Source: Siphonodentalium dalli
Taxonomy: Eukaryota; Mollusca; Scaphopoda; Gadilida; Siphonodentaliidae
Length of the DNA stretch: 64,000 nt
Assembly: GCA_032622095.1 (NCBI GenBank)
Contig: CP136064.1
Span: forward strand, 174,536,310 to 174,600,309
Direction of reading: 5' to 3'
This document shows, piece after piece, positions 2,379 through 46,360 of the stretch. How positions within the stretch are numbered: position 1 is the first letter of the stretch; the number at the start of each line of letters is the position of its first letter. The position numbers and the translations under genes are program-made. The notes under the pieces were generated by a model. It saw only the letters and a program-made list of their open reading frames with translations. It did not search any database and was not told where the DNA came from.

Positions 2379-2880
2379 TTAAAGGTACGGTTGGCCTTGG
2401 CGGTGGGTATCATGTAAAAATATTTTCACCCGTCAAAAACCGCCACAAACAGAAAGAACATCAAAATGTAGACATACTTTGTCCGTATACAAATAAGAAA
2501 TATCGCATAAACAGTATGTTATTGTCATATTTGTGACCATTGTTATGTAAACAAAAGCATAAAAAGTTACTTTTCTGGTGTTTGTTTATATTATGATGGT
2601 AAACATAAAGAGCGTTCTTTGTTGGCGAATTCCTGATATGGAACGAATAAAGAGCGTTTATGCCATTTGTGTGTGATTAGCCAGCAGCATTGTGCTGTCT
2701 TCTGTAACACAATCAGGCTCTTGCTTAGGTAAAATATAGTAAATATTTATGATAACATGCTGTTTACGCGATGGTCATGGTATATATGAACGAAACTGTA
2801 TGCGTTTTAATGTTTTTCTGTTTATGGTGATTGGAACAAATATGAATATTTTCGACAACTAAGGCCTCACGTGCCTTTAA
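2379..2880 (+). mobile_element. TTAA-flanked MITE, copy 1
   Basis: This is a non-autonomous DNA element of about 0.5 kb. It begins TTAAAGGTACGG and ends GTGCCTTTAA, with TTAA at both edges. The inverted ends are imperfect: AAAGGTACGGTTGGCCTTGG on the left against the complement of CCTCACGTGCCTTT on the right. Four more copies lie in the window at 3675, 17889, 21556 and 25225, the last three inverted. It has no coding capacity. The TTAA target suggests mobilisation by a piggyBac- or Kolobok-type transposase, but the ends are not diagnostic. The interior carries three ATAAAGAGCGTT-type motifs. Confidence 0.8.
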
Positions 2881-3674: not shown

Positions 3675-4180
3675 TTAAAGGTACGGTTGGCCTTGGCGGT
3701 GGGTATCCTGTGAAAATATTTCCACCCGTCAAAAACCGCCACAAACAGAAAGAACAACAAAATGTAGACAGACTTAATTTGTCCGTATACAAATAAGAAA
3801 TATCGCATAAACAGTATGTTATTGTCATATTTGTGACCATTGTTATGTAAACAAAAGCATAAAAAGTTACTTTTCTGGTGTTTGTTTATATTATGATGGT
3901 AAACATAAAGAGCGTTCTTTGTTGGTGAATTCCTTATATGGAACGAATAAAGAGCGTTTATGCCATTTGTGTGTGATTAGCCAGCAGCATTGTGCTGTCT
4001 TCTGTAACACAATCAGGCTCTTGCTTAGGTAAAATATAGTAAATCTTTATGATAACATGCTGTTTACGCGATGGCCATGGTATATATGAACGAAACTGTA
4101 TGCGTTTTAATGTTTTTCTGTTTACGGTGATTGGAACAAATATGAATATTTTCGACAACTAAGGCCTCACGTGCCTTTAA
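3675..4180 (+). mobile_element. TTAA-flanked MITE, copy 2
   Basis: Same orientation and nearly the same sequence as the copy at 2379. It differs by a few substitutions and one short insertion in the left third (GACAGACTTAATTTGTCC here, GACATACTTTGTCC there). TTAA occurs at both edges (3675-3678 and 4177-4180). Two same-orientation copies about 1.3 kb apart could recombine as the 17.9-25.7 kb copies appear to have done. The intervening 0.8 kb is single copy. Confidence 0.8.
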
Positions 4181-10043: not shown

Positions 10044-10790
10044 GTTTAGGTCCATATAGAGCGTATTTGAGTTTTCAAATAAAGCCAATATGAACGATTT
10101 CGCGCAAATTAAAAAAAGCCGAATTGTGGTTATTTTCTCGAGAACAGGCTTGATTTTACAGACTGTTCTTGTGAAAAGAAGTACATTACGTAATTAATTT
10201 AAATGTTGCGTTTTAGGCCCATATAGAGAGTAGTTGAGAAAAAGACGCTAATATATGGGTGTAAAACGCAGCGTTCAATATAAGCACGATATAGGCTTAT
10301 TTCAATACGAAGTAAGCCTTTATTGGCACCATTTATTCTACTTTTTCATCAATACGACTTACCAGATGCGCGCTCGCTCTTTATAATGGGTTGTGTGCGG
10401 CCCACCACATTCAACGGCATAACGGGCAAGTCAGCTCAAAATGGGCTTATTTCAGAGAAATAAGTCCAATATGAACCTATGTGAATATATATAGGTCCAA
10501 TTTGATATGTTATGAGGCGATTCTAAGCATACCATGCTTATTTTGAATGCCGCGTTTTATGCCCATATATATACATCATGTAGACAGGATATAGAGCATA
10601 TTTTTCCAAAAATATATACGCTCTATATATGGGCCTAAACGCAACACTGTGCTGCGTATTGTGCTTTTGTTCACAAGAACAAGCTGTTCTTGCAAAAATA
10701 AGCACAATACGGGCTTATTTTATAATTGCGCGAAATAAGCTCATATTATAACATTATTTGTTTGAAAACTGAAATACGCCATATATATAT
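10044..10790. mobile_element. Inverted-repeat element, about 0.74 kb
   Basis: The left end has GCGTATTTGAGTTTTCAAAT (10061) and the right end has its near complement, TTTGAAAACTGAAATACGC (10761-10779). Further mirrored phrases follow: a CGCGCAAATT patch near 10101 against AATTGCGCG near 10730, and the AACAGGCTTG region against AACAAGCTGTTCTTG. Several CCCATATATAGAGCG motifs lie inside. No reading frame. Probably a decayed MITE; no convincing target duplication seen. Confidence 0.6.
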
Positions 10791-10793
10791 ATA

Positions 10794-11845
10794 CTAGAAG
10801 GTGACCTGACTTCGTCCGGGCTTTGACATTGAATTGACCATTTTGAAGGTCAAGGTCAGGTGGGATCACGATTTGACCCGTCCAAAACACTCCCTGGAAA
10901 CAATTACCACTATGGTCCACTAAGTATCAAATTTTGTCAAAATCCGTCTGGCAATTTTCCAACACCAACACCCCAAAAATGGTGGAAATTGGGCAAGCGG
11001 ATACCGGGAAATCGGCCCAGCGGATACCGAGATACCCTATGTATCAAATTTCGTCCGTAAAAATCCGCCAGTTTTACCCGATTTGATTTCCACTAAAGTA
11101 TGTAAACGCGCCTCATATACACACGCTCATTAATTATCAAGCTTCAACGTAAAGATAAATTAGCATTGTGTGGTAAATTTTAACTAATTATTTTCTCGCA
11201 GTCAAAGTTGAACAATTTCGATGTTGTTGACATTGACGGCTTGGGGCCACCGGTAGATTCCATTTCGCAACAACGAAGTATCATTTCAGCTAAATGGATT
11301 CTTGGATGAGATTCCAGACCCGCGGGGTAAATGTAAACAGCTTGAGCCTATGCGTGGTGTGAATATACAAAAAATAAATCTATCGACAATAGACCTAAGA
11401 ATATTAGCTGTAACACAATTTATATATCAGAAATTGTAATAAATGATATATTTTGGGATAGATGCACGATTTTTTAATAGCCTGCAAATTGACAATATAT
11501 ATTGTAAATGTTATAATTTTGGGAAAAATACACGATGCGTAATTGCATGCCTGCAAATTGCTAACGTTCGTCGACGTATGAATATAGAGTTATCCTCCCT
11601 GCATCGCAGTGCTAAATCCGGGCGTGATAGCACTGCGGATCCCGAGATATGAGTTTTGAAGGTCAAGGTCACGTCGCACGGCCAAATCAATAGGCCTATG
11701 TTAACCCCCGGCCGAAAATACCCCCACGTACCAAGTTTCATCGAAATCGGGTCGGTCGTTTTTGAGTTCATCGATTACACACACACACACAGACAGATAC
11801 ACACACACACACACAACACACAGATCTTTCAAAATATATAATAGA
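10794..11845 (+). repeat. 1 kb interspersed repeat, array copy 1
   Basis: The head is ACTAGAAGGTGACC followed by GACTTCGTCCGGGC. Then come GACATTGAATTGACC, AGGTCAAGGTCA, a roughly 560 base unique middle, a second AGGTCAAGGTCACG block, and a tail of CA repeats ending CAAAATATATAATAGA. The frame of 66 codons at 10860 is identical in copies 2 and 4, but it is repeat sequence with no known domain. Confidence 0.75.
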
Positions 11846-12891
11846 CTAGAAGGTGACCCGACTTCGTCCGGGCTTTGACATTGAATTGACCATTTTGAAG
11901 GTCAAGGTCAGGTGGGGTCACGATTTGACCCGTCCAAAACACTCCCTGGAAACAATTACCACTATGGTCCACTAAGTATCAAATTTTGTCAAAATCCGTC
12001 TGGCAATTTTCCAACACCAACACCCCAAAAATGGTGGAAATTGGGCAAGCGGATACCGGGAAATCGGCCCAGCGGATACCGAGATACCCTATGTATCAAA
12101 TTTCGTCCGTAAAAATCCGCCAGTTTTACCCGATTTGATTTCCACTAAAGTATGTAAACGCGCCTCATATACACACGCTCATTAATTATCAAGCTTCAAC
12201 GTAAAGATAAATTAGCATTGTGTGGTAAATTTTAACTAATTATTTTCTCGCAGTCAAAGTTGAACAATTTCGATGTTGTTGACATTGACGGCTTGGGGCC
12301 ACCGGTAGATTCCATTTCGCAACAACGAAGTATCATTTCAGCTAAATGGATTCTTGTATGAGATTTCAGACCCGCGGGGTAAATGTAAACAGCTTGAGCC
12401 TATGCGTGGTGTGAATATACAAAAAATAAATCTATCGACAATAGACCTAAGAATATTAGCTGTAACAAAATTTATATATCAGAAATTGTAATAAATGATA
12501 TATTTTGGGATAGATGCACGATTTTTAATAGCCTGCAAATTGACAATATACATTGTAAATGTTATAATTTTGGGAAAAATACACGATGCGTAATTGCATG
12601 CCTGCAAATTGCTAACGTTCGTCGACGTATGAATATAGAGTTATCCTCCCCTGCATCGCAGTGCTAAATCCGGGCGTGATAGCACTGCGGATCCCGAGAT
12701 ATGAGTTTTGAAGGTCAAGGTCACGTCGCACGGGCAAAATCAATAGGCCTATGTTAACCCCCGGCCGAAAATACCCCCCACGTACCAAGTTTCATCGAAA
12801 TCGGGTCGGTCGTTTTTGAGTTCATCGATTACACACACACACAGACAGATACACACACACACACAGATCTTTCAAAAATATATAATAGACT
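11846..12891 (+). repeat. 1 kb interspersed repeat, array copy 2
   Basis: Nearly identical to the copy at 10794, with scattered one-base differences (TTCTTGTATGAGATTTC here, TTCTTGGATGAGATTCC there). It abuts copy 1 head to tail at TAATAGACTAGAAGG. High identity points to recent tandem amplification or unequal exchange. Confidence 0.75.
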
Positions 12892-13642
12892 AGAAGGTTA
12901 TCCGACTTCGTCCGGGCTTTGACCTTGAATTGGCCAATTTGAAGTTCAAGGTCAGGTGGGGTAACGATTTGACCGTCCAAAACACTGCCCGAACAAAAGT
13001 ACCCGACAAACGTGCCCGTCGAAATCCATCCGGTTTTACCCGATTTGACCTTGAATTGATCATTTAGAAGGTCAAGGTGAGGTCGGGGTCACGATTTGAC
13101 CCGTCCAAAATGGTCAGTGGACAAAAGTAACCCTATGTATCAAATTTCGTGGAAATCCCATCAAAATTGGCGATTTGACCTTGAATTGACCCGGTTTCAA
13201 GGTCAAGGTCACGTCGCACGGGCAAATGAATATGCTTATTGAGACTCCCCATTACGAAAGTACCCCCCACATACCAAGTTTCATCGAAATCCCGTGATAT
13301 TCGGGCGTTTGACCTTGAAATGACCCGATTTCAAGGTCAAGGTCACGTCGCACGGGCAAATTAATAGGCATATGCCACTTCTCGACCGAAAACACACCCC
13401 ACATACCAAGTTTCATCGAAATCCCGTGATATTCGGCATTTTACCTTGAAATAACCCGATTTCAAGGTCAAGGTCACGTCGCACGGGCAAATCAATAGGC
13501 CTATGTTAACCCCCGGCCGAAAATACCCCCACGTACCAAGTTTCATCGAAATCGGGTCGGTCGTTTTTGAGTTCATCGATTACACACACACACAGACAGA
13601 TACACACACACACACACAGATCTTTCAAAATATATAATAGAC
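12892..13642 (+). repeat. Related repeat, variant with tandem TCAAGGTCA blocks
   Basis: It shares head and tail with its neighbours but lacks the 560 base middle. Instead it holds about five repeats of a roughly 130 base module: TGACCTTGAA, TGACCCGATTTC, AAGGTCAAGGTCACGTCGCA, then ACCAAGTTTCATCGAAATC. Exact TCAAGGTCAAGGTCA occurs at 13197-13211, 13331-13345 and 13462-13476. It may be the fuller form of the family, from which the others derive by deletion. Confidence 0.7.
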
Positions 13643-14622
13643 TAGAAGGTGACCCGACTTCGTCCGGGCTTTGACATTGAATTGACCATTTTGAAGGTCA
13701 AGGTCAGGTGGGGTCACGATTTGACCCGTCCAAAACACTCCCTGGAAACAATTACCACTATGGTCCACTAAGTATCAAATTTTGTCAAAATCCGTCTGGC
13801 AATTTTCCAACACCAACACCCCAAAAATGGTGGAAATTGGGCAAGCGGATACCGGGAAATCGGCCCAGCGGATACCGAGATACCCTATGTATCAAATTTC
13901 GTCCGTAAAAATCCGCCAGTTTTACCCGATTTGATTTCCACTAAAGTATGTAAACGGGCCTCATATACACACGCTCATTAATTATCAAGCTTCAACGTAA
14001 AGATAAATTAGCATTGTGTGGTAAATTTTAACTAATTATTTTCTCGCAGTCAAAGTTGAACAATTTCGATGTTGTTGACATTGACGGCTTGGGGCCACCG
14101 GTAGATTCCATTTCGCAACAACGAAGTATCATTTCAGCTAAATGGATTCTTGGATGATATCCAGACCCGCGGGGTAAATGTAAACAGCTTGAGCCTATGC
14201 GTGGTGTGAATATACAAAAAATAAATCTATCGACAATAGACCTAAGAATATTAGCTGTAACAAAATTTATATATCAGAAATTTTAATAAATGTATATTTT
14301 GGGATAGATGCACGATTTTTAATAGCCTGCAAATTGACAATATATATTGTAAATGTTATAATTTTTGGGAAAAATACACGATGCGTAATTGCATGCCTGC
14401 AAATTGCTAACGTTCGTCGACGTATGAATATAGAGTTATCCTCCCTGCATCGCAGTGCTAAATCCGGCGTGATAGCACTGCGGATCCCGAGATATGAGTT
14501 TTGAAGGTCAAGGTCACGTCGCACGGGCAAATCAATAGGCCTATGTTAACCCCCGGCCGAAAATACCCCCACGTACCAAGTTTCATCGAAATCGGGTCGG
14601 TCGTTTTTGAGTTCATCGATTA
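13643..14622 (+). repeat. 1 kb interspersed repeat, array copy 4 (tail missing)
   Basis: It matches copies 1 and 2 as far as TTTTTGAGTTCATCGATTACA and then stops. The CA-rich tail is absent and unrelated sequence leading to a G tract follows. One variant (TTGGATGATATCC) distinguishes it from copies 1 and 2. Confidence 0.7.
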
Positions 14623-16510
14623 CATTGAAAAAGTTTGAGTTCTGTTGCATTCTGGGTGTCACGGGGGGGGGGGGGGGGGGGGGGGGGTATTTAAATGATT
14701 TCAGCAGTTTTCTATTTCTCTGTGGGCATCTTCTGAGACACAGATGTTTCAAATAGTGATGAATTATAATATTTTAATCATATTTTATGGCATAGATTGT
14801 TATTAAAAACCATATATCAAGTCACCATAAAAAAAAAAATCGGCGACTCGAAAATTAAGTGGGCCTTTAATTGAAAATACGGTGAAGCAATTCTGATAGC
14901 TATAAAAAGTTTAACCCTTTCACGACTGGAGCTTCCTGAAATTTTGCGAAAACCCTCAGCCAATGCATTCTCTTATATATGGGAGTCTACTATAAGTAGG
15001 GAGCCTCGCATATATAAGAGAATACTTAATATTAAAAATGAATGTTGGTTGCATGTGTTCCATATAGTATGGATGCAAGCTGTGAAAAGCGAAAGCGTTC
15101 CACATATAAAAATGTCAGACTAACCGGGGAGGGGGTGGTGTTGTAGCAAAAAAATTGCAGGAAGGTATGCCGTTTTTTTTGCATCTGGCATTTTGCTAGG
15201 ACCCACCACCCCCAAACCTGCAAAAAAAAAAAAAAAATTTAGTCCCAATGTTTTGACACCCCCCCCCCCAAATTTCACTAAAATTGGTCTAAAACTGCAT
15301 AAAACTATACTGATATCACTCATATGACTGGGAATGATCCCATTTAGTTCAAATAACAGTTTAACCTGTTTCAGAAGCTGATTTAATTGAAAAAAAAATG
15401 TTTTCTTAAATTGCTGATCATCTGTAAACCTAGGTCATTGTGCAGAATACACACAATTTCTTAATTTCTAACAATTTCCTGATTAGTCTGTCAATCAGCC
15501 CATTATCTAACATATTTCATACCACTTATGTTAGTCTACTTGAGCAACTTACTTCTATTATACTAAACTAGCTGAAACAGGGCTCCCGAATATATTCAGC
15601 GTCGAAGATACCTGTGGCTCCCTTTGTGGGACTTCGCACGTATTTTGATCTTAGACAGAGCCTTTATTTAGCGGCGGCCACTTTGTGATCATTAAAACAT
15701 TTTGATTTATATATATTGTTTTAATTATTTTTTTTTAGATTGAATTCCTTGCTCAATATACCAAAACCAAATTTATTTTATTTTTAATTCAAAATTTTGA
15801 ATAACACCATTATAGCATCCGCCAGGGTACAACCGACTGATCATACAAAATTTGGTTGAACTCGGTCCAGGGGTCTGAGAGAAAAATAAATCCGGGACAT
15901 CTAGTCATAGTACTCTACCAGACTTGGAACCTTAGGTCTTGTGAGAGATCATCTGAGTTGACAGACATGCAAATAAATTCACTGATTGGCTTGATGCACC
16001 GTTGATAGATACATTAATGTTTGAGACAGTTGCTCGCTCTTTCCATGCACACAATGATCTAGACATTAGTTACATCAGGACAAGTTTATTTATATATTCA
16101 AACTTAGGTCATTGTACAGGATACACACAATTCCATAATTTCTAACCATTTACCGATTAGTTAACCAGCCCATTATCTAGCATTATGCCTTAACACTTTT
16201 GATAAGTCTACTGGAGCAACGTCTGTTATAATAAATCGTCGCATCAGTGCTATAAGGTCGTAACTCCATTTTGGCCGGGAAACAAGTTATTGCTTTTTAA
16301 AAGAAAACGAGGGAGTAAGCAGAACAAATATGTGGTTCAATGGACAGATAATGTCAGTTTTTCATTGGGATAAATACAACAATACGTCATGCTTTGTCAA
16401 CATTAGGAGAAATGCTGCATGTTGGACCCTCAAAATTCAGATGACAAAAGTAGGATCCAACATTAGACCTACGAAAGACTATTAACATTAGTTTTCTAAT
16501 TAGATTTCTA
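14623..16510. other. Repeat-bearing non-genic stretch
   Basis: No gene recognised. ATTCTCTTATATATG (14967) mirrors CATATATAAGAGAAT (15013) to form a hairpin, and its flank GAAATTTTGCGAAAACCCTC is found inverted at about 62258. A direct repeat pair lies at 15425-15565 and 16098-16240 (TAGGTCATTGT, AATACACACAATT, CAGCCCATTATCTA, AGTCTACT.GAGCAAC). Confidence 0.5.
14663..14687 (+). repeat. Poly-G tract
   Basis: About 25 consecutive G. Tracts like this are length-unstable and can form G-quadruplexes. Similar runs occur in the hAT elements (20310, 23972, and C runs near 21249 and 24916) and at 39449-39464. The exact length is the least reliable part of any read here. Confidence 0.9.
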
Positions 16511-17640: not shown

Positions 17641-17888
17641 GAATGTACAAAACCTGAAAACGCTATATTTTACAAGGTTAAGCCAACTTAATATTTCCAA
17701 CATTATAAATCCAATTGTTTGATTATGAATTATTATGTGTGTATGGGCTCATAACCATTGCCACCAAATCGAACTTTCGCTTGAAAAATTCAATCTCCTT
17801 GTTAGATGCATACCAAACAATGGTATGGTGGCAACACAGCGCCGAACCACAGTATATTTGAGGAAAAAAAATACATCTGTGTCTTGGC

Positions 17889-18392
17889 TTTAAAGGCACA
17901 TGAGGCCTTAGTTGTCGAAAATATTCATATTTGTTCCAATCACCGTAAACAGAAAAACATTAAAACGCATACAGTTTCGTTCATATATACCATGACCATC
18001 GCGTAAACAGCATGTTATCATAAAGATTTACTATATTTTACATAAGCAAGAGCCTGATTGTGTTACAGAAGACAGCACAATGCTGCTGGCTAATCACACA
18101 CAAATGGCATAAACGCTCTTTATTCTTTCCATATCAGGAATTCACCAACAAAGAACGCTCTTTATGTTTACCATCATAATATAAACAAACACCAGAAAAG
18201 TTACTTTTTATGCTTTTGTTTACATAACAATGGTCACAAATATGACAATAACATACTGTTTATGCGATATTTCTTATTTGTATACGGACAAAGTCTGTCT
18301 ACATTTTGTTGTTCTTTCTGTTTGTGGCGGTTTTTGACGGGTGGAAATATTTTCACAGGATTACCCACCGCCAAGGCCAACCCTACCTTTAA
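17889..18392 (-). mobile_element. TTAA-flanked MITE, copy 3 (inverted)
   Basis: Reverse orientation of the copies at 2379 and 3675, with TTAA at 17889-17892 and 18389-18392. Left flank is GGCT and right flank is CTGAC. It differs from copies 4 and 5 in GTTGTCGAAAATATTC, CATATATACCATGACC and CAGGATTACCC. Confidence 0.85.
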
Positions 18393-18432
18393 CTGACAAT
18401 TTGAATTGAAAGCTGAATCAACGTGTAATAGA

Positions 18433-18628
18433 TTTCCAATGTTAACAATGTAATATTTCTAATGTTAAAATAATGTTATATTTCTAACGTTAAAATAACG
18501 TTATATTTCTAACGTTAAAATAACGTTAAATGTCTAACGTTAAAATAACGTTAAATTTCTAACGTTAATATAATGTTAGTTTTCTAACGTTAAAATAACG
18601 TTAAATTCGAAACGTTAAAATAATGTAA
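18433..18628 (+). repeat. AACGTT satellite, short block in unit 1
   Basis: About eight units of the same 25 base satellite seen at 16511-17640, starting with variant units (AATGTTAAAATAATGTTATA). The duplicate in unit 2 is at about 22097-22293. Confidence 0.8.
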
Positions 18629-19099
18629 AAAATTTAAAGCTATATTTTATAGGGTTGAGGCAACTTAAATTTGCCAACATCAATTGTAGCAACATCATAC
18701 ATCCAACAGTTTGCTATGAATTTTATGATCATGTGTTTGGCTTTAATGTTATATATGCATGAGGCCATATATATTGGATGAACCAATGACGATCATTGCA
18801 ACAAAATTCAACCCGCTTGTTATTTGCATGCAACATCATGGTGGCAACACAGCACCAAATCACAAAATGAAAAATAAATAGGAAGTCTCTGACTTGGCTT
18901 TAAGTTTAACTGACAATATTTCAGATGAAATAATTGTTCATAACAAACAGCTCTTTAACCACACCGATTCAATCCGCTTGTTATATGCACGCACAATCAA
19001 AATCATTACCGCTATGGATACCATTTATGCATGCAAACGAATTAACGATCCAGACTATATATACCGATACTGTTGGGAGTATAGGCCTATATATGTACT

Positions 19100-19480
19100 A
19101 GCTTGTGGGCCCGACTTCGTCCGGGCTGTTTCCCCTCTGCTTTCATCCGGATCTAACATCGAAATCCGTCGAAAGGCGCGATTTGACATTGAATTGACCA
19201 TTTTGAAGGTCAAGGTCAGATCGGGGTCACGATTTGACGCGTCCAAAACACTCCCCGGACAAAAGTACCCCTAGGTATCAAATTTCATCGAAATCCGTCC
19301 GTTTTACCCGATTTGACCATTTTGAATGTCAAGGTCAGGTCGGGATCACGATTTGACCCGTCCAAAACACTCCCCGGACAAAAGTACCCATAGGTATCAA
19401 ATTTCGTCGAAATCCGTCCGGTAGTTTTCCCGGCCATTGCTAACAGACAAACAGACAAACAGAAGTCCCAAAATATATAT
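19100..19480 (+). repeat. CGTCCGGGCT / TCAAGGTCA interspersed repeat
   Basis: It begins ACTAGCTTGTGGGCCCGACT and ends CAGACAAACAGACAAACAG followed by AAAATATATATTAGA. It has two TGACC..GTCAAGGTCAG modules, GTCCAAAACACTCCCCGGAC twice, and a ATCAAATTTCRTCGAAATCC phrase twice. The head is within a few bases of the start and the tail matches the 10.8-14.6 kb family, so this looks like a full-length short member. Confidence 0.7.
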
Positions 19481-19550
19481 TAGATCTGAAATAATTACAC
19501 CAAGGTCATGCCAATAGTTTATGGGTAGGTTAGATAGTAGTCACAATTAC

Positions 19551-19670
19551 GCTTAATCGCAATTGATTGCGCTTAAGCGCAATTCATCACGCTTAAGCGT
19601 AAATGCCCTATTTGTGCTTAAGAACAATATGTGGTATTTGCGCTTAAGCGCAATTGATTGCAATATTATT
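19551..19670. repeat. GCGCTTAAGCGC palindrome cluster
   Basis: Repeated copies of GCGCTTAAGCGCAATT with spacers GATT and CATCAC form overlapping short palindromes. Related single copies flank the hAT element at 20255-20293 and 21288-21330, so the hAT appears to have landed within this family. The duplicate lies at 23214-23334. Confidence 0.7.
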
Positions 19671-20293
19671 AAATGTGAATTTGGCCTCCCATACACTGCA
19701 CGAGGGCTTGCTTACCTCATATGGTTTACTTATTGACTAAAATCTGGGGAAAAAACATATTTTCATATTATCAGCATCCCTGTCCCAAAAAATTGGTGTC
19801 TCATTCCTGGAGATTTGGTGTCTCAGTCTTCGAGCTCAATTTTTTTTTATTATATCAACATCTCTTGCACAAATCTATAGTATTTCCATGGTCATATAGT
19901 GTGAATGTGGTGTCACCGAGGGCTTGCTTCCCTCATATATATATATGGTGTGCCTGTATACTCGAAAATTGAAGAAAATCAAAGTCGCCTCGACTAATAC
20001 AGAAAGTAATGCTATTGCGAGTAGCCCCAACTAATATATACCGAAGATAATATAATGCTATCACGAGTCGCTCCAACTAAAACAGAAGGTGATACTATTG
20101 CGAGTCAGCCATTTTGATAAAGAAGTACGTTGGGCTAGCTCTCTATCCATCCAAATCTATGAAAACAAGAGGTGATATATGTCAATAGGAGTTAAGGTTA
20201 AGTTATGGATAAACCTATTTATTCACCAGGGGTGTTTAGTTACATATAACCATGAATTGCGCTAAAGCGCAATTAATTGCACTTGATTGCGCT

Positions 20294-21287
20294 CAGAGAC
20301 GTGGCGACAGGGGGAGGGGGGGGGGTTGTGGGTGTCTCACCCCCCAACTTTGGTCAAAATTTTCAACAGTTGGAAATTTCATACCTGCCAAAACATTAGT
20401 TGGAAATTTCACACCAACAATAGGTTGAAAATGTTCTTGTAGTTTGATTTTCAAACAATTTATTGGGGGAATTTATTGTTTTTGGACCAATATTTGCATA
20501 TTATACTATTTTTTGTCAAACTTTTGGACTGAAATGGTCATCAGTTGGAAATTTTCCAACCTCAGGGAGGTGACAGGTTGGAAAATTCCAACACTTGGAA
20601 ATCTTGTATCCTGGTCCCTCCCCCATGGCCAGTCAAAAACTGCTAGTTAATTTAAGAAAACAATATTGTCATAAATTTGGTCAACATTGTCATTGGAATT
20701 GTCATCAGTTGTAAATTTTTCCAACCTAAGTGGGGTGTCAGGTTTGAAATTTCCAACTCTGAGAATGATTGAGGCTAGGATTTTGCGATTTACTTGTTCA
20801 GATTACAAAATGTTCGCACACCGGGCCATTGTCTCTCCCCCGTGGCCAATACAAAAATGCTAATAAGTTTAAAAATATTTTACTACATTTGGTCAAACTT
20901 GTGGGCTGAAATGGTCATCGGTTGGAGAATTTTCCAACCTGAGGGGGAGTATGAGGTTATAGGAAAGCTTTAGTTGAGGCCAGTCTGGATGCTAGGATTT
21001 GCGATTTTCTTGTTCAAAATTTCATAATTTTCTCACACCCGGCCGAACAACCATGGTCAGCCCGGTTGTCGTGGTCTCTCTGTCTGTATATAGCCGTTTG
21101 CATTTGTATTTGTATGGAGTTAGAACTTAGACTTAGACCACTATATGTTAGGATTTATGCAATGTTTCAGGTTAAAATATCTGAATGTTCTCATACCGGG
21201 AATATAGAACCATGGTTATGAAGATATAGGATATTATTAGGCGGACACCCCCCCCCCCCAAACGGAAACCCTCTAGCCACGTCCCTG
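20294..21287. mobile_element. hAT-type non-autonomous element, unit 1 copy
   Basis: The ends are CAGAGACGTGGC and, complemented, CAGGGACGTGGC, and they are inverted. The 8 base direct repeat ATTGCGCT flanks the element exactly (20286-20293 and 21288-21295). Ends starting CAGRG with an 8 base duplication are characteristic of the hAT superfamily. The 994 base interior is full of short palindromes of the form TTGGAAATTTTCCAACC, the kind of subterminal sites hAT transposases bind, and has G and C homopolymers near the ends. No transposase frame. Confidence 0.88.
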
Positions 21288-21365
21288 ATTGCGCTTAAGC
21301 GCAATTGATTGCGCAATTAATTATTAAATGTGAATTTGGCCTCCCATACATTTAAACATATATAA

Positions 21366-21436
21366 CACAGTGGTGCAAGATCGGTGGAGAAAACGGTGGA
21401 GAGTTTCAAGATGGCGACGGAAAAAAGTAGCGTAAG
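21366..21436 (+). promoter_or_regulatory. Duplicated promoter/5' leader plus first-exon module (unit 1)
   Basis: The leader ACACAGTGGTGCAAGATCGG with GGAGAAAACGGTGGAG precedes an ATG at 21411 in the context CAAGATGG. The frame MATEKSSVR ends at a good donor, AAG|GTACGT, after 21436. The identical module at 25033-25105 is the one adjoining the zinc-finger exon. This upstream copy is left without its own downstream exons, unless a transcript splices across the second unit. Confidence 0.55.
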
Positions 21437-21555
21437 GTACGTGGTTCAACTCAATGAATGTTTTCTGTCATTTCAGTAATTAATTTCACTACGACAAAGT
21501 TGCACGGGCAGTCGAATTGTGTGTGGAATATATTCGACATGTTGTTCAATTGATA

Positions 21556-22056
21556 TTAAAGGCACGTGAGGCCTTAGTTGTCAAAATATTCATATTTGTT
21601 CCAATCACCGTAAACAGAAAAACATTAAAACGCATACAGTTTCGTTCATATATAGCATGACCATCGCGTAAACAGCATGTTATCATAAAGATTTACTATA
21701 TTTTACATAAGCAAGAGCCTGATTGTGTTACAGAAGACAGCACAATGCTGCTGGCTAATCACACACAAATGGCATAAACGCTCTTTATTCTTTCCATATC
21801 AGGAATTCACCAACAAAGAACGCTCTTTATGTTTACCATCATAATATAAACAAACACCAGAAAAGTTACTTTTTATGCTTTTGTTTACATAACAATGGTC
21901 ACAAATATGACAATAACATACTGTTTATGCGATATTTCTTATTTGTATACGGACAAAGTCTGTCTACATTTTGTTGTTCTTTCTGTTTGTGGCGGTTTTT
22001 GACGGGTGGAAATATTTTCACAGGATACCCACCGCCAAGGCCAACCCTACCTTTAA
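21556..22056 (-). mobile_element. TTAA-flanked MITE, copy 4 (middle, recombinant)
   Basis: Left flank GATA is shared with copy 5 and right flank CTGAC with copy 3. Internal diagnostic bases match copy 5. This is the arrangement expected at a crossover between copies 3 and 5. Confidence 0.88.
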
Positions 22057-22096
22057 CTGACAATTTGAATTGAAAGCTGAATCAACGTGTAATAGA

Positions 22097-22293
22097 TTTC
22101 CAATGTTAACAATGTAATATTTCTAATGTTAAAATAATGTTATATTTCTAACGTTAAAATAACGTTATATTTCTAACGTTAAAATAACGTTAAATGTCTA
22201 ACGTTAAAATAACGTTAAATTTCTAACGTTAATATAATGTTAGTTTTCTAACGTTAAAATAACGTTAAATTCGAAACGTTAAAATAATGTAAA
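22097..22293 (+). repeat. AACGTT satellite, short block in unit 2
   Basis: Duplicate of the block at 18433-18628 with no differences I could see by eye. Confidence 0.8.
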
Positions 22294-22762
22294 AAATTTA
22301 AAGCTATATTTTATAGGGTTGAGGCAACTTAAATTTGCCAACATCAATTGTAGCAACATCATACATCCAACAGTTTGCTATGAATTTTATGATCATGTGT
22401 TTGGCTTTAATGTTATATATGCATGAGGCCATATATATTGGATGAACCAATGACGATCATTGCAACAAAATTCAACCCGCTTGTTATTTGCATGCAACAT
22501 CATGGTGGCAACACAGCACCAAATCACAAAATGAAAAATAAATAGGAAGTCTCTGACTTGGCTTTAAGTTTAACTGACAATATTTCAGATGAAATAATTG
22601 TTCATAACAAACAGCTCTTTAACCACACGATTCAATCCGCTTGTTATATGCACGCACAATCAAAATCATTACCGCTATGGATACCATTTATGCATGCAAA
22701 CGAATTAACGATCCAGACTATATATACCGATACTGTTGGGAGTATAGGCCTATATATGTACT

Positions 22763-23145
22763 AGCTTGTGGGCCCGACTTCGTCCGGGCTGTTTCCCCTC
22801 TGCTTTCATCCGGATCTAACATCGAAATCCGTCGAAAGGCGCGATTTGACATTGAATTGACCATTTTGAAGGTCAAGGTCAGATCGGGGTCACGATTTGA
22901 CGCGTCCAAAACACTCCCCGGACAAAAGTACCCCTAGGTATCAAATTTCATCGAAATCCGTCCGTTTTACCCGATTTGACCATTTTGAATGTCAAGGTCA
23001 GGTCGGGATCACGATTTGACCCGTCCAAAACACTCCCCGGACAAAAGTACCCATAGGTATCAAATTTCGTCGAAATCCGTCCGGTAGTTTTCCCGGCCAT
23101 TGCTAACAGACAAACAGACAAACAGAAGTCCCAAAATATATATTA
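22763..23145 (+). repeat. CGTCCGGGCT / TCAAGGTCA repeat, unit 2 copy
   Basis: Duplicate of 19100-19480, essentially identical. Confidence 0.7.
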
Positions 23146-23213
23146 GATCTGAAATAATTACACCAGGTCATGCCAATAGTTTATGGGTAGGTTAGATAGT
23201 AGTCACAATTACG

Positions 23214-23334
23214 CTTAATCGCAATTGATTGCGCTTAAGCGCAATTCATCACGCTTAAGCGTAAATGCCCTATTTGTGCTTAAGAACAATATGTGGTATT
23301 TGCGCTTAAGCGCAATTGATTGCAATATTATTAA
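23214..23334. repeat. GCGCTTAAGCGC palindrome cluster, unit 2
   Basis: Duplicate of 19551-19670. Confidence 0.7.
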
Positions 23335-23955
23335 ATGTGAATTTGGCCTCCCATACACTGCACGAGGGCTTGCTTACCTCATATGGTTTACTTATTGACT
23401 AAAATCTGGGGAAAAAACATATTTTCATATTATCAGCATCCCTGTCCCAAAAAATTGGTGTCTCATTCCTGGAGATTTGGTGTCTCAGTCTTCGAGCTCA
23501 ATTTTTTTTTATTATATCAACATCTCTTGCACAAATCTATAGTATTTCCATGGTCATATAGTGTGAATGTGGTGTCACCGAGGGCTTGCTTCCCTCATAT
23601 ATATATATGGTGTGCCTGTATACTCGAAAATTGAAGAAAATCAAAGTCGCCTCGACTAATACAGAAAGTAATGCTATTGCGAGTAGCCCCAACTAATATA
23701 TACCGAAGATAATATAATGCTATCACGAGTCGCTCCAACTAAAACAGAAGGTGATACTATTGCGAGTCAGCCATTTTGATAAAGAAGTACGTTGGGCTAG
23801 CTCTCTATCCATCCAAATCTATGAAAACAAGAGGTGATATATGTCAATAGGAGTTAAGGTTAAGTTATGGATAAACCTATTTATTCACCAGGGGTGTTTA
23901 GTTACATATAACCATGAATTGCGCTAAAGCGCAATTAATTGCACTTGATTGCGCT

Positions 23956-24956
23956 CAGAGACGTGGCGACAGGGGGAGGGGGGGGGGGGGGGGTTGTGGG
24001 TGTCTCACCCCCCAACTTTGGTCAAAATTTTCAACAGTTGGAAATTTCATACCTGCCAAAACATTAGTTGGAAATTTCACACCAACAATAGGTTGAAAAT
24101 GTTCTTGTAGTTTGATTTTCAAACAATTTATTGGGGGAATTTATTGTTTTTGGACCAATATTTGCATATTATACTATTTTTTGTCAAACTTTTGGACTGA
24201 AATGGTCATCAGTTGGAAATTTTCCAACCTCAGGGAGGTGACAGGTTGGAAAATTCCAACACTTGGAAATCTTGTATCCTGGTCCCTCCCCCATGGCCAG
24301 TCAAAAACTGCTAGTTAATTTAAGAAAACAATATTGTCATAAATTTGGTCAACATTGTCATTGGAATTGTCATCAGTTGTAAATTTTTCCAACCTAAGTG
24401 GGGTGTCAGGTTTGAAATTTCCAACTCTGAGAATGATTGAGGCTAGGATTTTGCGATTTACTTGTTCAGATTACAAAATGTTCGCACACCGGGCCATTGT
24501 CTCTCCCCCGTGGCCAATACAAAAATGCTAATAAGTTTAAAAATATTTTACTACATTTGGTCAAACTTGTGGGCTGAAATGGTCATCGGTTGGAGAATTT
24601 TCCAACCTGAGGGGGAGTATGAGGTTATAGGAAAGCTTTAGTTGAGGCCAGTCTGGATGCTAGGATTTGCGATTTTCTTGTTCAAAATTTCATAATTTTC
24701 TCACACCCGGCCGAACAACCATGGTCAGCCCGGTTGTCGTGGTCTCTCTGTCTGTATATAGCCGTTTGCATTTGTATTTGTATGGAGTTAGAACTTAGAC
24801 TTAGACCACTATATGTTAGGATTTATGCAATGTTTCAGGTTAAAATATCTGAATGTTCTCATACCGGGAATATAGAACCATGGTTATGAAGATATAGGAT
24901 ATTATTAGGCGGACACCCCCCCCCCCCCAAACGGAAACCCTCTAGCCACGTCCCTG
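23956..24956. mobile_element. hAT-type non-autonomous element, unit 2 copy
   Basis: Same element as 20294-21287, with the same ATTGCGCT flanks (23948-23955 and 24957-24964). It was carried along by the segmental duplication rather than inserted separately. Length differences are mainly in the G run near 23972 and the C run near 24916. Confidence 0.88.
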
Positions 24957-25032
24957 ATTGCGCTTAAGCGCAATTGATTGCGCAATTAATTATTAAATGT
25001 GAATTTGGCCTCCCATACATTTAAACATATAT

Positions 25033-25105
25033 AACACAGTGGTGCAAGATCGGTGGAGAAAACGGTGGAGAGTTTCAAGATGGCGACGGAAAAAAGTAGC
25101 GTAAG
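25033..25105 (+). promoter_or_regulatory. Promoter/5' leader and first coding exon of zinc-finger gene
   Basis: The leader is the same as at 21366. ATG at 25080 opens MATEKSSVR, 26 coding bases ending in AAG|GTACGT. Joined across the intron to the acceptor TTTCAG before 26588, the phase is preserved (AG plus A gives Arg). That supports this being exon 1 of the zinc-finger locus. A 38 base part of the leader is repeated on the opposite strand at 29294-29332. Confidence 0.6.
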
Positions 25106-25224
25106 GTACGTGGTTCAACTCAATGAATGTTTTCTGTCATTTCAGTAATTAATTTCACTACGACAAAGTTGCACGGGCAGTCGAATTGTGTGTGGAATAT
25201 ATTCGACATGTTGTTCAATTGATA

Positions 25225-25725
25225 TTAAAGGCACGTGAGGCCTTAGTTGTCAAAATATTCATATTTGTTCCAATCACCGTAAACAGAAAAACATTAAAAC
25301 GCATACAGTTTCGTTCATATATAGCATGACCATCGCGTAAACAGCATGTTATCATAAAGATTTACTATATTTTACATAAGCAAGAGCCTGATTGTGTTAC
25401 AGAAGACAGCACAATGCTGCTGGCTAATCACACACAAATGGCATAAACGCTCTTTATTCTTTCCATATCAGGAATTCACCAACAAAGAACGCTCTTTATG
25501 TTTACCATCATAATATAAACAAACACCAGAAAAGTTACTTTTTATGCTTTTGTTTACATAACAATGGTCACAAATATGACAATAACATACTGTTTATGCG
25601 ATATTTCTTATTTGTATACGGACAAAGTCTGTCTACATTTTGTTGTTCTTTCTGTTTGTGGCGGTTTTTGACGGGTGGAAATATTTTCACAGGATACCCA
25701 CCGCCAAGGCCAACCCTACCTTTAA
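25225..25725 (-). mobile_element. TTAA-flanked MITE, copy 5 (right boundary of duplication)
   Basis: Left flank GATA and right flank GTATT, with TTAA at 25225-25228 and 25722-25725. Homology to units 1 and 2 ends exactly at this right TTAA. It lies in the intron between exon 1 (25080) and the zinc-finger exon (26588). Confidence 0.88.
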
Positions 25726-26587: not shown

Positions 26588-26989
26588 AATTGAAGCAATG
26601 GAAGAATCCTTCAACGCAGAATCAGGCTCAACGTCTCAGACAACGAGTGGTCAATAATCGGACTCGGACAAACGATTCAGACATGTGTGTGCGTATTGTG
26701 CAAATTCCTTCAACATGAAAAAGCAGGAGAATAACATCGTGTGGTGATGGTGGCCAAAAGTTTATTGAGAAACATTTGTTGCTTCAACTTGCTTGCACAT
26801 CGCGCAAAGCACGGTGATGGATCTAAATTTGAATACGACAAATGGCCTTTTTTTTCTCGCAAGTACGCCTTGAATCACCATATAGAAAGTCACCAAATTG
26901 GAAAGTGGCACACACGTGATAAATGCCGTTCTGTATTTACCAAGAAGGATACCTTAAGGAATCACACGAAAGCTGTACACGACAATTAA
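26588..26989 (+). pseudogene. Broken C2H2 zinc-finger exon
   Basis: After the acceptor TTTCAG the frame reads IEAMEESFNAESGSTSQTTS and meets a TAA at 26655. Past that stop, the same frame gives VCAYCANSFNMKK, a C-x2-C finger start, then a TGA. Traces of further fingers continue in other frames. The last part (26741-26989) contains KFEYDKWPFFSRKYALNHHI and HTRDKCRSVFTKKDTLRNHT followed by KAVH. Family fingers need C-x2-C and H-x3-4-H. Here ligand cysteines are replaced by Tyr/Trp and Arg while the histidine pairs remain. Stops, shifts and ligand losses together indicate a decayed zinc-finger gene, presumably a nucleic-acid-binding protein in origin. An undetected intron could explain some frame changes but not the lost ligands. 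Confidence 0.72.
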
Positions 26990-29332: not shown

Positions 29333-29820
29333 ATAAGCCCCCCACCTATATATCCCTATGCATGGCTTTGAAGAAAACAATTACATGGCATTGGAAAAAT
29401 CTCCACCACCCACTGTTCACAAACGATATTAACATTTAACTGCAACAAAATATACATTCGAGAAAGCGCGCATGTGCTATTATTTACAAACAAAACCACG
29501 CGGTTTGAAAATTCCGCGAATGACTTTGCAAAACATCTTTCGTAACTAGGCAACGTCGCAGGTGTCCTACAGCACGTTGTACCGATACTATTAACAAACA
29601 ACACACTTAAATATAGTTCCTATTAATTTAGGATTTACTAACCAAAAGAAGATATATGAGTAAACATTATTGAAATCGCAGATTTATATACTTTATGTCT
29701 GTTAAATTTCTTCATATTCTTTTGATAATATACGTTATTTAAAATTTTATACTTTTACCATTCGAAGAGCAAGAATATTTATGACGTATTTCCGATAATG
29801 TGAAATAGTACCCAAACAAT
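29333..29820. promoter_or_regulatory. FoxJ2/3 upstream region
   Basis: This contains the 5' untranslated region and core promoter of FoxJ2/3, wherever transcription starts. No TATA box stands out close to the ATG. The last 200 bases are AT-rich, including TATTTATGACG. No repeats recognised, unlike the surrounding sequence. Confidence 0.4.
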
Positions 29821-30177
29821 ATGGCGGAGCTCGAGAGCAGTTTGACTGCGATGGACTGGCTCCATCGGCTTTCTGTCGGTGGAGCCATGGGAAATATCGG
29901 ACCTAATGCAAATAATGGACAGATAAAAACTGCCGCTGGTCAACTCGCTATGCGAAAACCTCCGAATTCCCCACTGGACACCACGGCCACACTTGACCAA
30001 AATGAAGGAATGGTTACGGGCACTCCAACGAAAGATGGAAAACCACCGTACAGTTACGCCAACTTGATAACATTTGCAATAAACAGCTCTCATAAAAAGA
30101 AAATGACTTTGAGTGAAATTTACCAGTGGATTTGTGATAATTTTCCGTACTATAAGGACGCGGGAAATGGTTGGAAG
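29821..30177 (+). CDS. foxj2/3: Forkhead transcription factor FoxJ2/3, exon 1 (start of gene)
   Basis: 119 codons from ATG in a strong context (ACAATATGG) to a phase-0 donor, TGGAAG|GTTCGT. The N-terminus ELESSLT.MDWL is the conserved FoxJ2/FoxJ3 signature near the start of the vertebrate proteins. Residues 45-70 form a low-complexity linker. The forkhead domain starts at KPPYSY (74-79) and continues with [11 protein letters not shown], the [20 protein letters not shown] helices, and GNGWK (115-119). In the family the domain continues with NSIRHN, which is exactly what the exon at 50261 supplies. Reading through the donor ends at a stop within 28 codons. The protein is expected to be nuclear and to bind DNA at RYAAAYA-like sites. 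Donor position +3 is T, a mild deviation from the GTRAGT consensus. Confidence 0.95.
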
Positions 30178-30673
30178 GTTCGTTTTGTGAATTATTTTTG
30201 GTTCCGAAAGAGGTATCAAAAATGTAAACATTCAATTTCATTTTCAATTTCACTGTGTTAGTATTACTTAGACTTAGTGTTAAACTTAAAGTGTTTTCAG
30301 ATCCGTCTACTCTTCACTGTTTCACATACATTTATCAGATTTCAGTAAATTTATCTATACTTTATAGATATTGACATCGTTGCTTTAATATTATTTGATG
30401 TTGCACACCACTGTCACCAGTCTTGCTCGTTGGTGAAATTTTGCTGGAAATAATTCATTATTAATTGCATGGTCATCTCCTGCATTCAGACTTTCAGTAT
30501 ACATTCTCAGATTCTGTAGTTTTAACTTAAGCTTTACATCTATTTATATATGCACCATATATTGCATCCAGGTAAACGGGTGATAAATCAGTGTTTCCGC
30601 TAGGGGGTAGGGGAATGGGTAGACCCAGTTGAGTCACATACATGATATACACATGTATGAGACTCAGATCTCG

Positions 30674-31309
30674 TCAGTAGTGGCCGGATCTGATGCTCAT
30701 ACCTTTTCTAATTACAGGCGACAAAGGACTCCTGGTCGCAGATTCTGCTTGGTTCTCTTATTATGGTGACAATAAAGACAAGATTCCACCAAAAGTTCCG
30801 AAATCCGCGCCTTCATGAGCTAAAATAAAGACTTTTGTCATTTGTGCAAAAGAAATTGTCTGTTTACGGAAGCGATATTTCACCACATGTTAATGCTGTT
30901 TGTCATGCGCAGTTCAATGTTTCATGATGGTCAATAAAACGTGTACTCCACCCCGAAGACGACTGTTGGAAATGTGTACTTGGAAGATATTATGGAAAAA
31001 CTAAATTCTTTTGCTAAATGTTATGCTACTATGCCAATATATTACATATGTAATAAAAATATTACCGAAAAATTATCAACATATACTTTTTAATAGAATT
31101 GTTGCATCGAAAATATACTATTTAAAAAGTGTACTCCAAGCCAGAATGAGAAAAAGTGTAGCCGAGTTAGATCATGCTTTATTACCCACTTCTACAAAAT
31201 GTTGTATTATACTTTCAACAAGTTGTAGAAATATATTGGTGATATGAAGTAATTATTTTATTCAGTGAAACATAATCAGTTCTCACATTTGTCATGGTGT
31301 CAAAAAATG
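30674..31309 (+). repeat. Left arm of 2.1 kb inverted repeat
   Basis: About 636 bases, from GTCAGTAGTGGCCGG to GACACCATGACAAATGTGAG-type sequence and TTTTTGACAT, mirrored with very few mismatches at 32129-32777. A 78 codon frame at 31011-31247 is preserved in both arms with two conservative changes, but resembles nothing I know. A terminal-exon-like module lies at 30718-30829. Confidence 0.9.
30718..30829 (+). pseudogene. Terminal-exon-like module in left arm
   Basis: A good acceptor (CCTTTTCTAATTACAG) is followed by an open frame in phase to read DKGLLVADSAWFSYYGDNKD and then KIPPKVPKSAPS. A TGA follows at 30816 and AATAAA at 30824. That order (acceptor, short balanced peptide, stop, overlapping poly(A) signal) is what the last exon of a small gene looks like. 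I do not recognise the protein. It may be a captured host 3' exon, a functional alternative terminal exon for FoxJ2/3 transcripts, or chance. Confidence 0.4.
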
Positions 31310-32128
31310 ACATACTCCGGCCCTGACGCCGACTCGGGGAAATTGTGTGTATACCGGTACCGGTACTCGGAAGATATATGGTATAATTGCATCACTATAC
31401 GGTATATATACTTATACCATTGTTAACTTCATTAAAAGTTGAACAAAACAATCATTCTCCTATTATAATAAAGTGTACATCGAAATAGCATTAAAAAGTG
31501 TAGGCCTACTGCCCTACTCCGGATCCGACTCATACATTTGGCCAATATCGGGGTTTTTTTTTTTCATTCAGTGTCTATTTGTTCAGTTTAATTACGGTAC
31601 CTACTCTCGTCCTGGGATTGGGATAAGCAGACTTCATGGTAGCCGTTTTGTTATAGTTTTCTTTGTCCTGGTTTTCCCCCTGCACTAACAGCTACAAACT
31701 TGCACCATCATCTGGTCGTCCGTTGTTCGCACAGTAGTGAAACAAACGCTATTTATTTATACCATATCAGGAATAGACTCACACGGAATGCTCTTTTCCA
31801 AAAGCAAATATTTTTAGGTGTAACATGTTTTCATATTAGCGAAACAAACGCTAATTATAATAACCTATTTAGTGACACTTTAGTGATAATATATCGCCAT
31901 TTTATTGTTCATAAATTGGCCTAACAAGTTTTGAGACTTTTTTTTACCATACAGTTGACTGGTTTATAGCATTAGTCTGTTGCAGTAAATCGATTCTGAT
32001 AACTAAAGCTTATTTTGAACAATTGTTGTTATTGTATATATATACGCAATAGGCACACGAAAGCAAACCTTATGGGTGTTAGAATACAAACACAGTTCGC
32101 GCAGCTATCAATGCGCGACGATGTGATT
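31310..32128. other. Spacer of the 2.1 kb inverted repeat
   Basis: An 819 base loop region. At 31735-31805 it has the same module as 631-690: AACGCTATTTAT, CCATATCAGGAATAGACT, then GAATGCTCTTTTCC. No gene recognised. Confidence 0.5.
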
Positions 32129-32777
32129 ATGTCATTTTTGACACCATGCATGACAAATGTGAGAACTGATTATGTTTCACTGAATAAAATAATTACTTCA
32201 TATCACCAATATATTTCTACAACTTGTTGAAAGTATAATACAACATTTTGTAGAAGTGGGTAATAAAGCATGATCTAACTCGGCTACACTTTTTCTCATT
32301 CTGGCTTGGAGTACACTTTTTAAATAGTATATTTTCGAAGCAACAATTCTATTAAAAAGTATATGTTGATAATTTTTCGGTAATATTTTTATTACATATG
32401 TAATAAATTGGCATAGTAGCATAATATTTAGCAAAAGAATTTAGTTTTTCCATAATATCTTCCAAGTACACATTTCCAACAGTCGTCTTCGGGGTGGAGT
32501 ACACGTTTTATTGACCATCATGAAACATTGAACTGCGCATGACAAACAGCATTAACATGTGGTGAAATATCGCTTCCGTAAACAGACAGACAACAATTTC
32601 TTTTGCACAAATGACAAAAGTCTTTATTTTAGCTCATGAAGGCGCGGATTTCGGAACTTTTGGTGGAATCTTGTCTTTATTGTCACCATAATAAGAGAAC
32701 CAAGCAGAATCTGCGACCGGGAGTCCTTTGTCGCCTGTAATTAGAAAAGGTATGAGCATCAGATCCGGCCACTACTG
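32129..32777 (-). repeat. Right arm of 2.1 kb inverted repeat
   Basis: Reverse complement of 30674-31309. Visible differences are few: an extra 13-17 bases in total and scattered substitutions (CATGCATGACAAATG against CATGACAAATG). Arms this similar imply recent formation or ongoing gene conversion. Confidence 0.9.
32629..32734 (-). pseudogene. Terminal-exon-like module in right arm (inverted)
   Basis: Mirror of 30718-30829: the same acceptor, frame, TGA (complement of 32634-32636) and poly(A) signal. One coding change is visible (CTG to CCG, Leu to Pro, in the fifth codon). It lies antisense to FoxJ2/3. Confidence 0.4.
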
Positions 32778-33760
32778 ACCCAATCTGAAGCTCTAAAGAG
32801 TGTAAATCTTTAGAGCTTCCCTGGAGCTAGGGAATGGGGTGGTTTGTAGATAGGGGAAAACACGAACACCTGCTTCGAAAATTTAGAAAAGTGCAACACT
32901 AGAAATGCATTGTCCAGCAGAACGCGAATTACGATTATAATTCTGGTATGTATACATTCTCAAAATTAAAACAAGAAATGTAACAATTTATGTGATACAA
33001 CAGTCAGTCAATTAAGTTGATTAACCACATTATTGTGGTTCAACTGAGTGAAATAAAAACAAACTTTTAACTGAGACTAAATTTAGATTTATTTTTTATT
33101 TCCGGTGGGTAGAATAATTAAATGTACTATGATATTTCGTACCAGTTAAAAGTCAACTATACTCTTGAGGAGGTGCCTCGCCAAGTCATCAAGGGAAGTT
33201 CATGACCAACAGTAACATTCACTCGTCTTTTAAAAATTCATTCGATCTACGAACACTGGTTTAAAAAGCTCGGAACTATTTTGTTGTTGCATTCAATCAT
33301 TTGGGGTCACACAATTGAAATTACCTCGAGAGAATTGCTGCTATCGGCGGGAAAGTGTTGGCTATGATGCTTCATTGGGCGGGAGAGGGGGGTCACACAA
33401 TTGATATTGACTCGAGATAATTGCTATATAAAGATTTGTACTTGGTAACCAACGAAGCTATGACGCTTCATTGGTAGAGTTACGTCACAAATATCGCATT
33501 CGCATCGTACACAAAATATATCGTTTCCGGCTATATATTACGAATCGATATACTGAAGGTTTTACGGTTACACGAAATTCCAGGGTTTTCAAGGAGTTTG
33601 CATTAAAACAAAGGGTTCAAGGGCCCTGGGAGGGGAATGCGTCAGGGGAAAATCAGAGAAAAACTTTGCTAGGGGAAAACTTGGCTAGGGGAAAACTTGG
33701 CTAGGGGAACGGGGCCGTCAAAGGGACCCCCTGCCGGTATAGCGGAATCCCTGGATAAAT

Positions 33761-45072: not shown

Positions 45073-46360
45073 TAGTCCGGGAGCTAATAGGGGTACCCTT
45101 GCACCCCCCCTGGGACTTAACTTCACCCCACTCATTTTGTTCCTTATTATGTCCTTCAACTTTTAAGCAATGTTAACAAGAAAAAAAAGCGGCCGTGTAG
45201 ACTCCAGACAAGATGGCGTCCATCATGGCCGCCGTTTTTCAGCCCAGACCCTAAGTCAGTTTTATGCAAATTATAGCGGGAAAATCTTGTAAAATGTATA
45301 CAAATGTATATATTTTCGTGAAGCTGAGACATAATGACACATTTTTGAGCCAAAATTGAAACTCACCATCCAAGATGGCCGCAAAAATGGCCACCGGAAG
45401 TTGAAAATATAACATTTTTTCACAAATATCTTCTAGATCAATTCATGCTGTTTGGAACTGGTTGAGTAATGCAACTTTATTTTGTGTTTTGTATATTAAC
45501 TGATCATTGGAGCAACGAAATATGCAATTATTGGGGTCCTAACCCCTTCCGATCCCTCAAAAATTCGATTTTACAGAATGCGGTATAAAATTTCACGAAA
45601 AATCACAATTGGGATTCTAGTCATATTTCAACAAGAAATGAACAGAACTTTGTAATGTAAGTGAGGCATATCATTAACTATTAATGTTCCAAATCACTGG
45701 GACCAAAATTCTTACTTTGGCTCAAAATGGCTGCCAATATGGCCACCAAAATATGGAAAATGGTAAATATTACACCAGCGTGTCCTGAAATCGCTTACAA
45801 GTTGTGGTTGATGTATACAATTGGCTAATCTGTATTCTATACATTGCATACTAACATGTCTAATGCACCATGGATCATTCTTACTATTGTCACCACTGAC
45901 ATCACCAGAAATATGGGATTTTTCTCTCACAAACTTGACAAAAATATTGGCAAAAATTCACTTTTCAGGGTTCAACCATTTGTTCAAGTAAACTGCAACT
46001 ATCTTTGGTATCAAAGTTGTTTATTGTTTTGGTCTATCTTAAGTGTGTCACACTGTGATGTTTAAAGACTGAAATGCTCAAGATGGCTTCCAAAATGGCA
46101 ACCAAATTTGTAAAAAGTTAAAAGTTAACATATCCCGAACATTATTCTCTGCGTTATCCGAAAAAGATAGCAAATTGTGACTCACTTGGTTATTTTACGT
46201 ATTAATTAATTAACTGACAAATACGTTCTATTATATTTGTTCCAGTTCCGTATGGGGCATGACAAATTCATTTTAAAGTTGCAGTATGGAATTTTGCGGA
46301 GAACCTCTTTTGTGACTCTGGCCATATTATTGAAAGGAAATGAGCAGAACTTTGAGACGG
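45073..46360 (+). repeat. Left arm of 4.87 kb foldback
   Basis: About 1.29 kb. It carries AAGATGGCGTCCATCATGGC, CCAAGATGGCCGC and CAAGATGGCTTCCAAAATGG motifs that reappear in complement in the right arm. Confidence 0.88.

Follow-up and report, generated by a model that had tools for sequence, protein, structure and literature searches.

A tandem duplication flanked by Kolobok-like MITEs in Siphonodentalium dalli, best explained by recombination between two MITE copies

How did a segment of 3.16 kb come to stand twice, side by side, between three copies of one transposable element? The question is raised by a stretch of 64,000 nucleotides from the scaphopod mollusc Siphonodentalium dalli (assembly GCA_032622095.1, contig CP136064.1, positions 174,536,310 to 174,600,309 of the forward strand), which is called the window in the following. 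The element is a miniature inverted-repeat transposable element (MITE), and its copies are named M1 to M5 in order of position. Three of them (M3, M4 and M5) alternate with two nearly identical units, and the middle one combines flanks of the two outer ones. We regard a tandem duplication by homologous recombination between M3 and M5 as the best explanation of this array and as fairly probable. The features concerned are the following:

2379-2880, minus strand: M1, a dispersed MITE copy that served as outgroup
3675-4180, minus strand: M2, a dispersed MITE copy that served as outgroup
17890-18392, plus strand: M3, the left outer MITE, flanked by GGCT and CTGAC, with TTAA on each side
18393-21555, plus strand: first copy of the unit, between M3 and M4, with a 25-bp repeat array and a 119-bp tandem repeat
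21556-22056, plus strand: M4, the middle MITE, with a left flank like that of M5 and a right flank like that of M3
22057-25224, plus strand: second copy of the unit, between M4 and M5
25225-25725, plus strand: M5, the right outer MITE, flanked by GATA and GTATT

Self-BLAST aligned positions 17890-22056 with 21556-25725 at 99.69% identity over 4174 columns, and the periods of the duplicated block are 3666 and 3669 bp. M3, M4 and M5 have the same orientation as one another and are inverted relative to M1 and M2. An earlier inspection of the DNA letters (the sequence-only reading) had described three inverted MITE copies around two near-identical units, and these values bear the description out. 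Between the unit copies there is not a single substitution; they differ by four run-length indels (CC/C at 18964, AA/A at 19502, G10/G16 at 20315 and C12/C13 at 21247). M4 and M5 are identical in 501 of 501 bases, and their identity continues leftwards for 308 bp before the first difference, while that of M3 and M4 continues rightwards for 572 bp. M4 is thus a flank hybrid, with surroundings like those of M5 on the left and like those of M3 on the right, as had been claimed. Over 40 bp, the sequence to the left of M3 does not match that to the left of M4, and the sequence to the right of M4 does not match that to the right of M5. The claim that homology ends at the MITE edges also held, since the 200 bp outside the two outer limits have ungapped identities of 0.30 and 0.25, the random level; the duplicated block begins exactly where M3 begins and ends exactly where M5 ends. 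The M4 junction contains no extra base. The three-copy anatomy, the exchange of flanks and the substitution-free units are directly visible in the assembly, and chance is not a reasonable explanation for such an anatomy.

The MITE itself is about 500 bp long (493 bp without the TTAA) and is present in five full-length copies in the window, as detected by self-BLAST. On the plus strand all five start with TTAAAGG and finish with CCTTTAA; the terminal inverted repeats are weak, with 16-18 matches in the first 25 bases, TTAA counted in. A single strand of M5 folds into one long hairpin, which is more stable than its shuffled versions (-64.1 compared with -42.6 kcal/mol, z -4.95, equalled by 0 of 100 shuffles). 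The target site is TTAA at each of the four independent insertion sites (M1, M2, M3 and M5), and the termini of all five copies (AG...CT) agree with the 5'-RR and YY-3' ends described as a criterion of the Kolobok superfamily (PMC9587614). A TTAA target-site duplication is, according to the same description, common to piggyBac too (PMC9587614). The combination of target and ends fits the Kolobok superfamily. The TTAA target and an inverted repeat beginning with AGG recall the T2-MITE and Kolobok MITEs described from Xenopus; the terminal AGGRR motif given for T2-MITE, however, is replaced here by AGGCA and AGGTA, with CA or TA instead of RR at bases 4-5 (PMC6004289). A 31-base exact pattern of the MITE had 0 matches in viral contigs. 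In four states M3, M4 and M5 agree with one another and differ from M1 and M2, so that M3 and M5 are members of one subfamily or come from a recent common source. A similarity of about 30 bp, short and diverged, extends between a flank of M2 and the left flank of M4 and M5.

For the favoured mechanism we propose that two MITEs of Kolobok type, oriented alike, inserted into TTAA sites about 3.2 kb apart. Non-allelic homologous recombination (NAHR) would then have joined M5 on one chromatid with M3 on the other, doubling the segment between the MITEs in tandem and leaving the hybrid M4 at the junction. Recombination between two pre-existing MITEs would account for every observed feature with one event, a reading that is partly supported; we infer the crossover as the route, and the duplication is apparently recent. 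The sequence-only reading had called the array the exact product of unequal crossing-over. Anatomy and flank exchange agree with this, but "exact" is too strong, because other routes give the same sequence: a crossover between sisters or homologues, excision of a circle and its reinsertion, break-induced replication and template switching would all do so. The other direct MITE pair, M1 and M2, encloses 794 bp that match nothing else in the window; these MITEs therefore do not always bound one same segment. NAHR between dispersed transposable elements is known to give a duplicated segment between two direct copies with a flank-hybrid element at the junction, and we found no difference from this anatomy, the present case involving a TTAA-type MITE of which all three copies are full length. 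Unequal crossing-over between transposable elements is cited as a source of tandem repeats (PMC12628747). In the parts of the literature consulted, which concerned duplications mediated by MITEs or by repeats and the alternative transposition of TTAA elements, we recognised no MITE-MITE duplication of this form.

Were M3 and M5 already distinct before the event? M3 differs from M4 and M5 at four sites (17900 A/G, 17917 G/-, 17990 C/G and 18361 TT/T), and with M1 and M2 as outgroup two of these states alone are derived in M4 and M5, the deletion at 17917 and the G at 17990. These common derived states are directly seen. Since they are missing from M1, M2 and M3, M3 and M5 differed before M4 arose, which favours the view that the outer MITEs were distinct before the duplication, barring a later conversion of M4 or M5. 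Between the aligned blocks, both substitutions and all three non-run differences fall in the MITE (503 of 3667 bp); under an even spread the probabilities are 0.019 and 0.0026, respectively, values that rest on small numbers and on classes picked post hoc.

The base-by-base alignment of the three MITEs also bears on where the exchange took place. M4 follows M5 at all four diagnostic sites and no switch is visible inside it, so that the switch would lie to the right of all four if all four were old. The sites that firmly tie M4 to M5 are 17917 and 17990. At 17900 and 18361, however, the states are private to M3, and both may have changed in M3 after the duplication event. The TT/T difference at 18361 may furthermore be a consensus error, since one-base indels in runs separate other repeats of the window: six of seven one-base indels in one repeat pair at 10.8-14.6 kb, four of five and four of six in two further pairs there, and four of five in a pair at 45-49 kb fall in runs, while a pair at 30-32 kb has none and M1 and M2 have none. 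The alignment thus bounds the switch point only on one side, right of 17990, and the safe interval for the exchange would be 17991-18392 (402 bp). The earlier placement of the exchange near the right end of the MITE is not secure, because a single 1-bp run indel private to M3 carries it.

A diverged relative of the M3 insertion site, located in the unit, may indicate which of the junctions is the original one:

17659-17889, plus strand: left flank of M3, in which the collinear pieces 17659-17731 and 17785-17893 are matched by 18636-18903 in the first unit copy
18636-18917, plus strand: MITE-free paralogous site, whose end reads CTTGGCT-TTAAGTTTAA-CTGACAAT

The pieces of the left flank are collinear with this paralogue, at identities of 82% (45 columns), 76% (51 columns) and 70% (109 columns). 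A 25-bp repeat array precedes both; near-matches to a 20-mer of this repeat number 29 in the window, 21 of them left of M3 and four in each of the two units. The paralogue sets the two flanks of M3 side by side without a MITE. Next in both the right flank of M3 and the paralogue comes TTAACTGACAAT, a 12-mer that occurs in the window at these places and in their unit 2 copies only. M3's flanks may therefore have been contiguous before a MITE inserted there, which supports, but does not prove, GGCT/CTGAC as the original junction and the GATA/CTGAC of M4 as the new one. At 18894-18917 the paralogue contains TTAA-GT-TTAA, which may have been left by the excision of a TTAA element or may be older sequence.

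Several observations weigh against recombination between M3 and M5 as set out above. M4 does not differ from M5 anywhere along its length. Were the crossover point uniformly distributed, such identity would have a probability of about 0.80 with 17990 as the sole bound of the exchange, but of 0.06 if the TT/T indel at 18361 is genuine and predates the event. The match of the paralogue to the right flank of M3 is short (13 bases, E 0.074), and shuffled sequences equalled the right-flank score in 2, 54, 251 and 707 of 5000 trials for the first 8, 20, 40 and 60 bp, respectively. MAFFT did not align the right flank of M3 to the paralogue, which moreover carries TTAAGTTTAA instead of a single TTAA.

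Other explanations of the array were weighed as well. A replicative origin, in which template switching or break-induced replication began at the hairpin-forming MITE and used the other MITE as template, is unlikely but deserves some weight, given the strong hairpin of M5; its outcome would have the same sequence as that of a crossover, so that sequence does not tell the two apart, and the crossover is simpler and agrees with a junction that has no extra base. Quite unlikely is an artefact in which one real unit was doubled because the assembler circled the MITE-unit-MITE loop twice or fused two haplotypes at a MITE. An assembly path looping through a repeat of 500 bp would yield the same hybrid middle MITE, the unit copies show zero substitutions, and of the five 1-bp indels that separate the blocks, four lie in runs, as consensus errors would. 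Yet the units differ at G10/G16, at C12/C13 and in two short runs, so that neither is a plain copy of the other. For haplotypes differing by 0.5% the absence of any substitution in 3665 bp has a probability of about 1e-8, although the real heterozygosity could be low here. The near-identical tandem copies of 1 kb at 10.8-14.6 kb and the lack of any N in the 64 kb suggest long reads, which would reach across the array. The run-length differences and the missing substitutions speak against the two simplest artefacts, while an assembly loop retains some probability; the duplication is probably present in the animal and not in the assembly alone. Two further explanations were rejected. Insertion of a macro-element M3-unit-M5 beside itself predicts two adjacent MITEs and four in total, but the array has three. 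If three MITEs had inserted independently into an older tandem repeat, the coincidence of repeat limits and MITE edges would stay unexplained; this reading fails because the outer flanks lie outside the repeat.

Transposition would account for the complete identity of M4 and M5 in another way. Suppose that the right end of M5 was excised jointly with the left end, facing it, of another MITE to its right, and that both went into the TTAA on the right edge of M3 in the sister chromatid: M3 and M5 would stay in place and M4, joined to CTGAC, would equal M5 over its full length, as observed; that such reversed-ends transposition of a MITE would yield the structure is our own derivation. It has been described for maize Ac/Ds as a source of tandem direct duplications with one element at the junction (PMC3744419, PMC4270019), but that element belongs to another superfamily. 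Here the process would need one particular TTAA beside an existing MITE, among 530 in the window, and a second, donor element, of which the window holds no further copy right of 25725. Right of M5, the window has only a match of 53 bp to the interior of the MITE (31744-31796, 79%) and isolated 7-mers TTAAAGG at 26319 and 56088, and a query with the terminal 60 bp of the MITE gave no match at either 7-mer. We therefore hold this route to be very unlikely; if true, TTAA-type MITEs of animals would join the elements known to undergo reversed-ends transposition. Least credible is the insertion of a ready-made KolobokP multimer. KolobokP are composite-like elements, rich in bivalves, that form (LTDR-INT)n-LTDR multimers, and the array shares with them the layout, repeats of about 500 bp with their own inverted ends (493 bp without TTAA, compared with about 450 or 660 bp), RR...YY termini, weak terminal inverted repeats and single repeats nearby, here M1 and M2 (PMC9587614). 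The INT of autonomous KolobokP is described as encoding a transposase and a His-Me nuclease (PMC9587614). In the first unit copy no domain above the Pfam cut-off was found in 10 of the 13 stop-free stretches of at least 55 aa, although Pfam may lack the KolobokP families, and the two weak matches concerned domains of unknown function (E 0.0092 and 0.22). Because nonautonomous KolobokP families exist, according to the same source, missing genes do not exclude such an element. However, KolobokP is reported to lack a strong target preference and to have target-site duplications of 3-5 bp (PMC9587614), whereas all four sites here are TTAA. The sequences on the inner (CTGACAAT) and outer (CTTGGCT) side of M3 adjoin in the paralogue, the inner segment is apparently local DNA, and the segment between M1 and M2 is unrelated to the unit. 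The description of KolobokP names unequal crossover as one proposed cause of the multimers and leaves the origin of the LTDR-INT-LTDR layout open (PMC9587614); a further, unlikely reading takes the array as a newly formed composite, a step towards such a layout.

If recombination between M3 and M5 formed the array, the duplication is most likely a further example of a known process, of modest interest but cleanly preserved, both parent MITEs and the hybrid being complete. By itself it leaves the knowledge of repeat-mediated duplication unchanged. If it is real and polymorphic, it lets one ask whether pairs of MITEs a few kb apart promote changes in copy number, and whether composites such as KolobokP can begin in this way.

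Neighbouring parts of the window contain further features. A tRNA scan and an Rfam scan at gathering thresholds each gave 0 hits in the window. About 4 kb downstream of the duplication, a stop-free stretch on the plus strand (29809-30258) encodes a forkhead domain (PF00250, E 2.9e-17) that matched 46 solved forkhead-type sequences; it may resemble the start of FOXJ2/J3. A stretch of 82 aa at 26741-26986 has a weak match to a C2H2 zinc finger (E 0.00065, under the Pfam cut-off). A second local tandem duplication lies at 10781-14624, with offsets of about 1.05 and 1.8 kb and 97-98.6% identity. Two inverted pairs were found as well, one of about 650 bp at 30673-31317 and 32125-32779 (97.4% identity) and one of 1.3 kb at 45073-46369 and 48646-49939 (91.6% identity), with AGTCCGGGAGCTAATAGGG at the start of each copy. 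Arrays of a repeat of about 164 bp occupy 60601-61487 and 63621-64000, the second of which continues past the end of the window.

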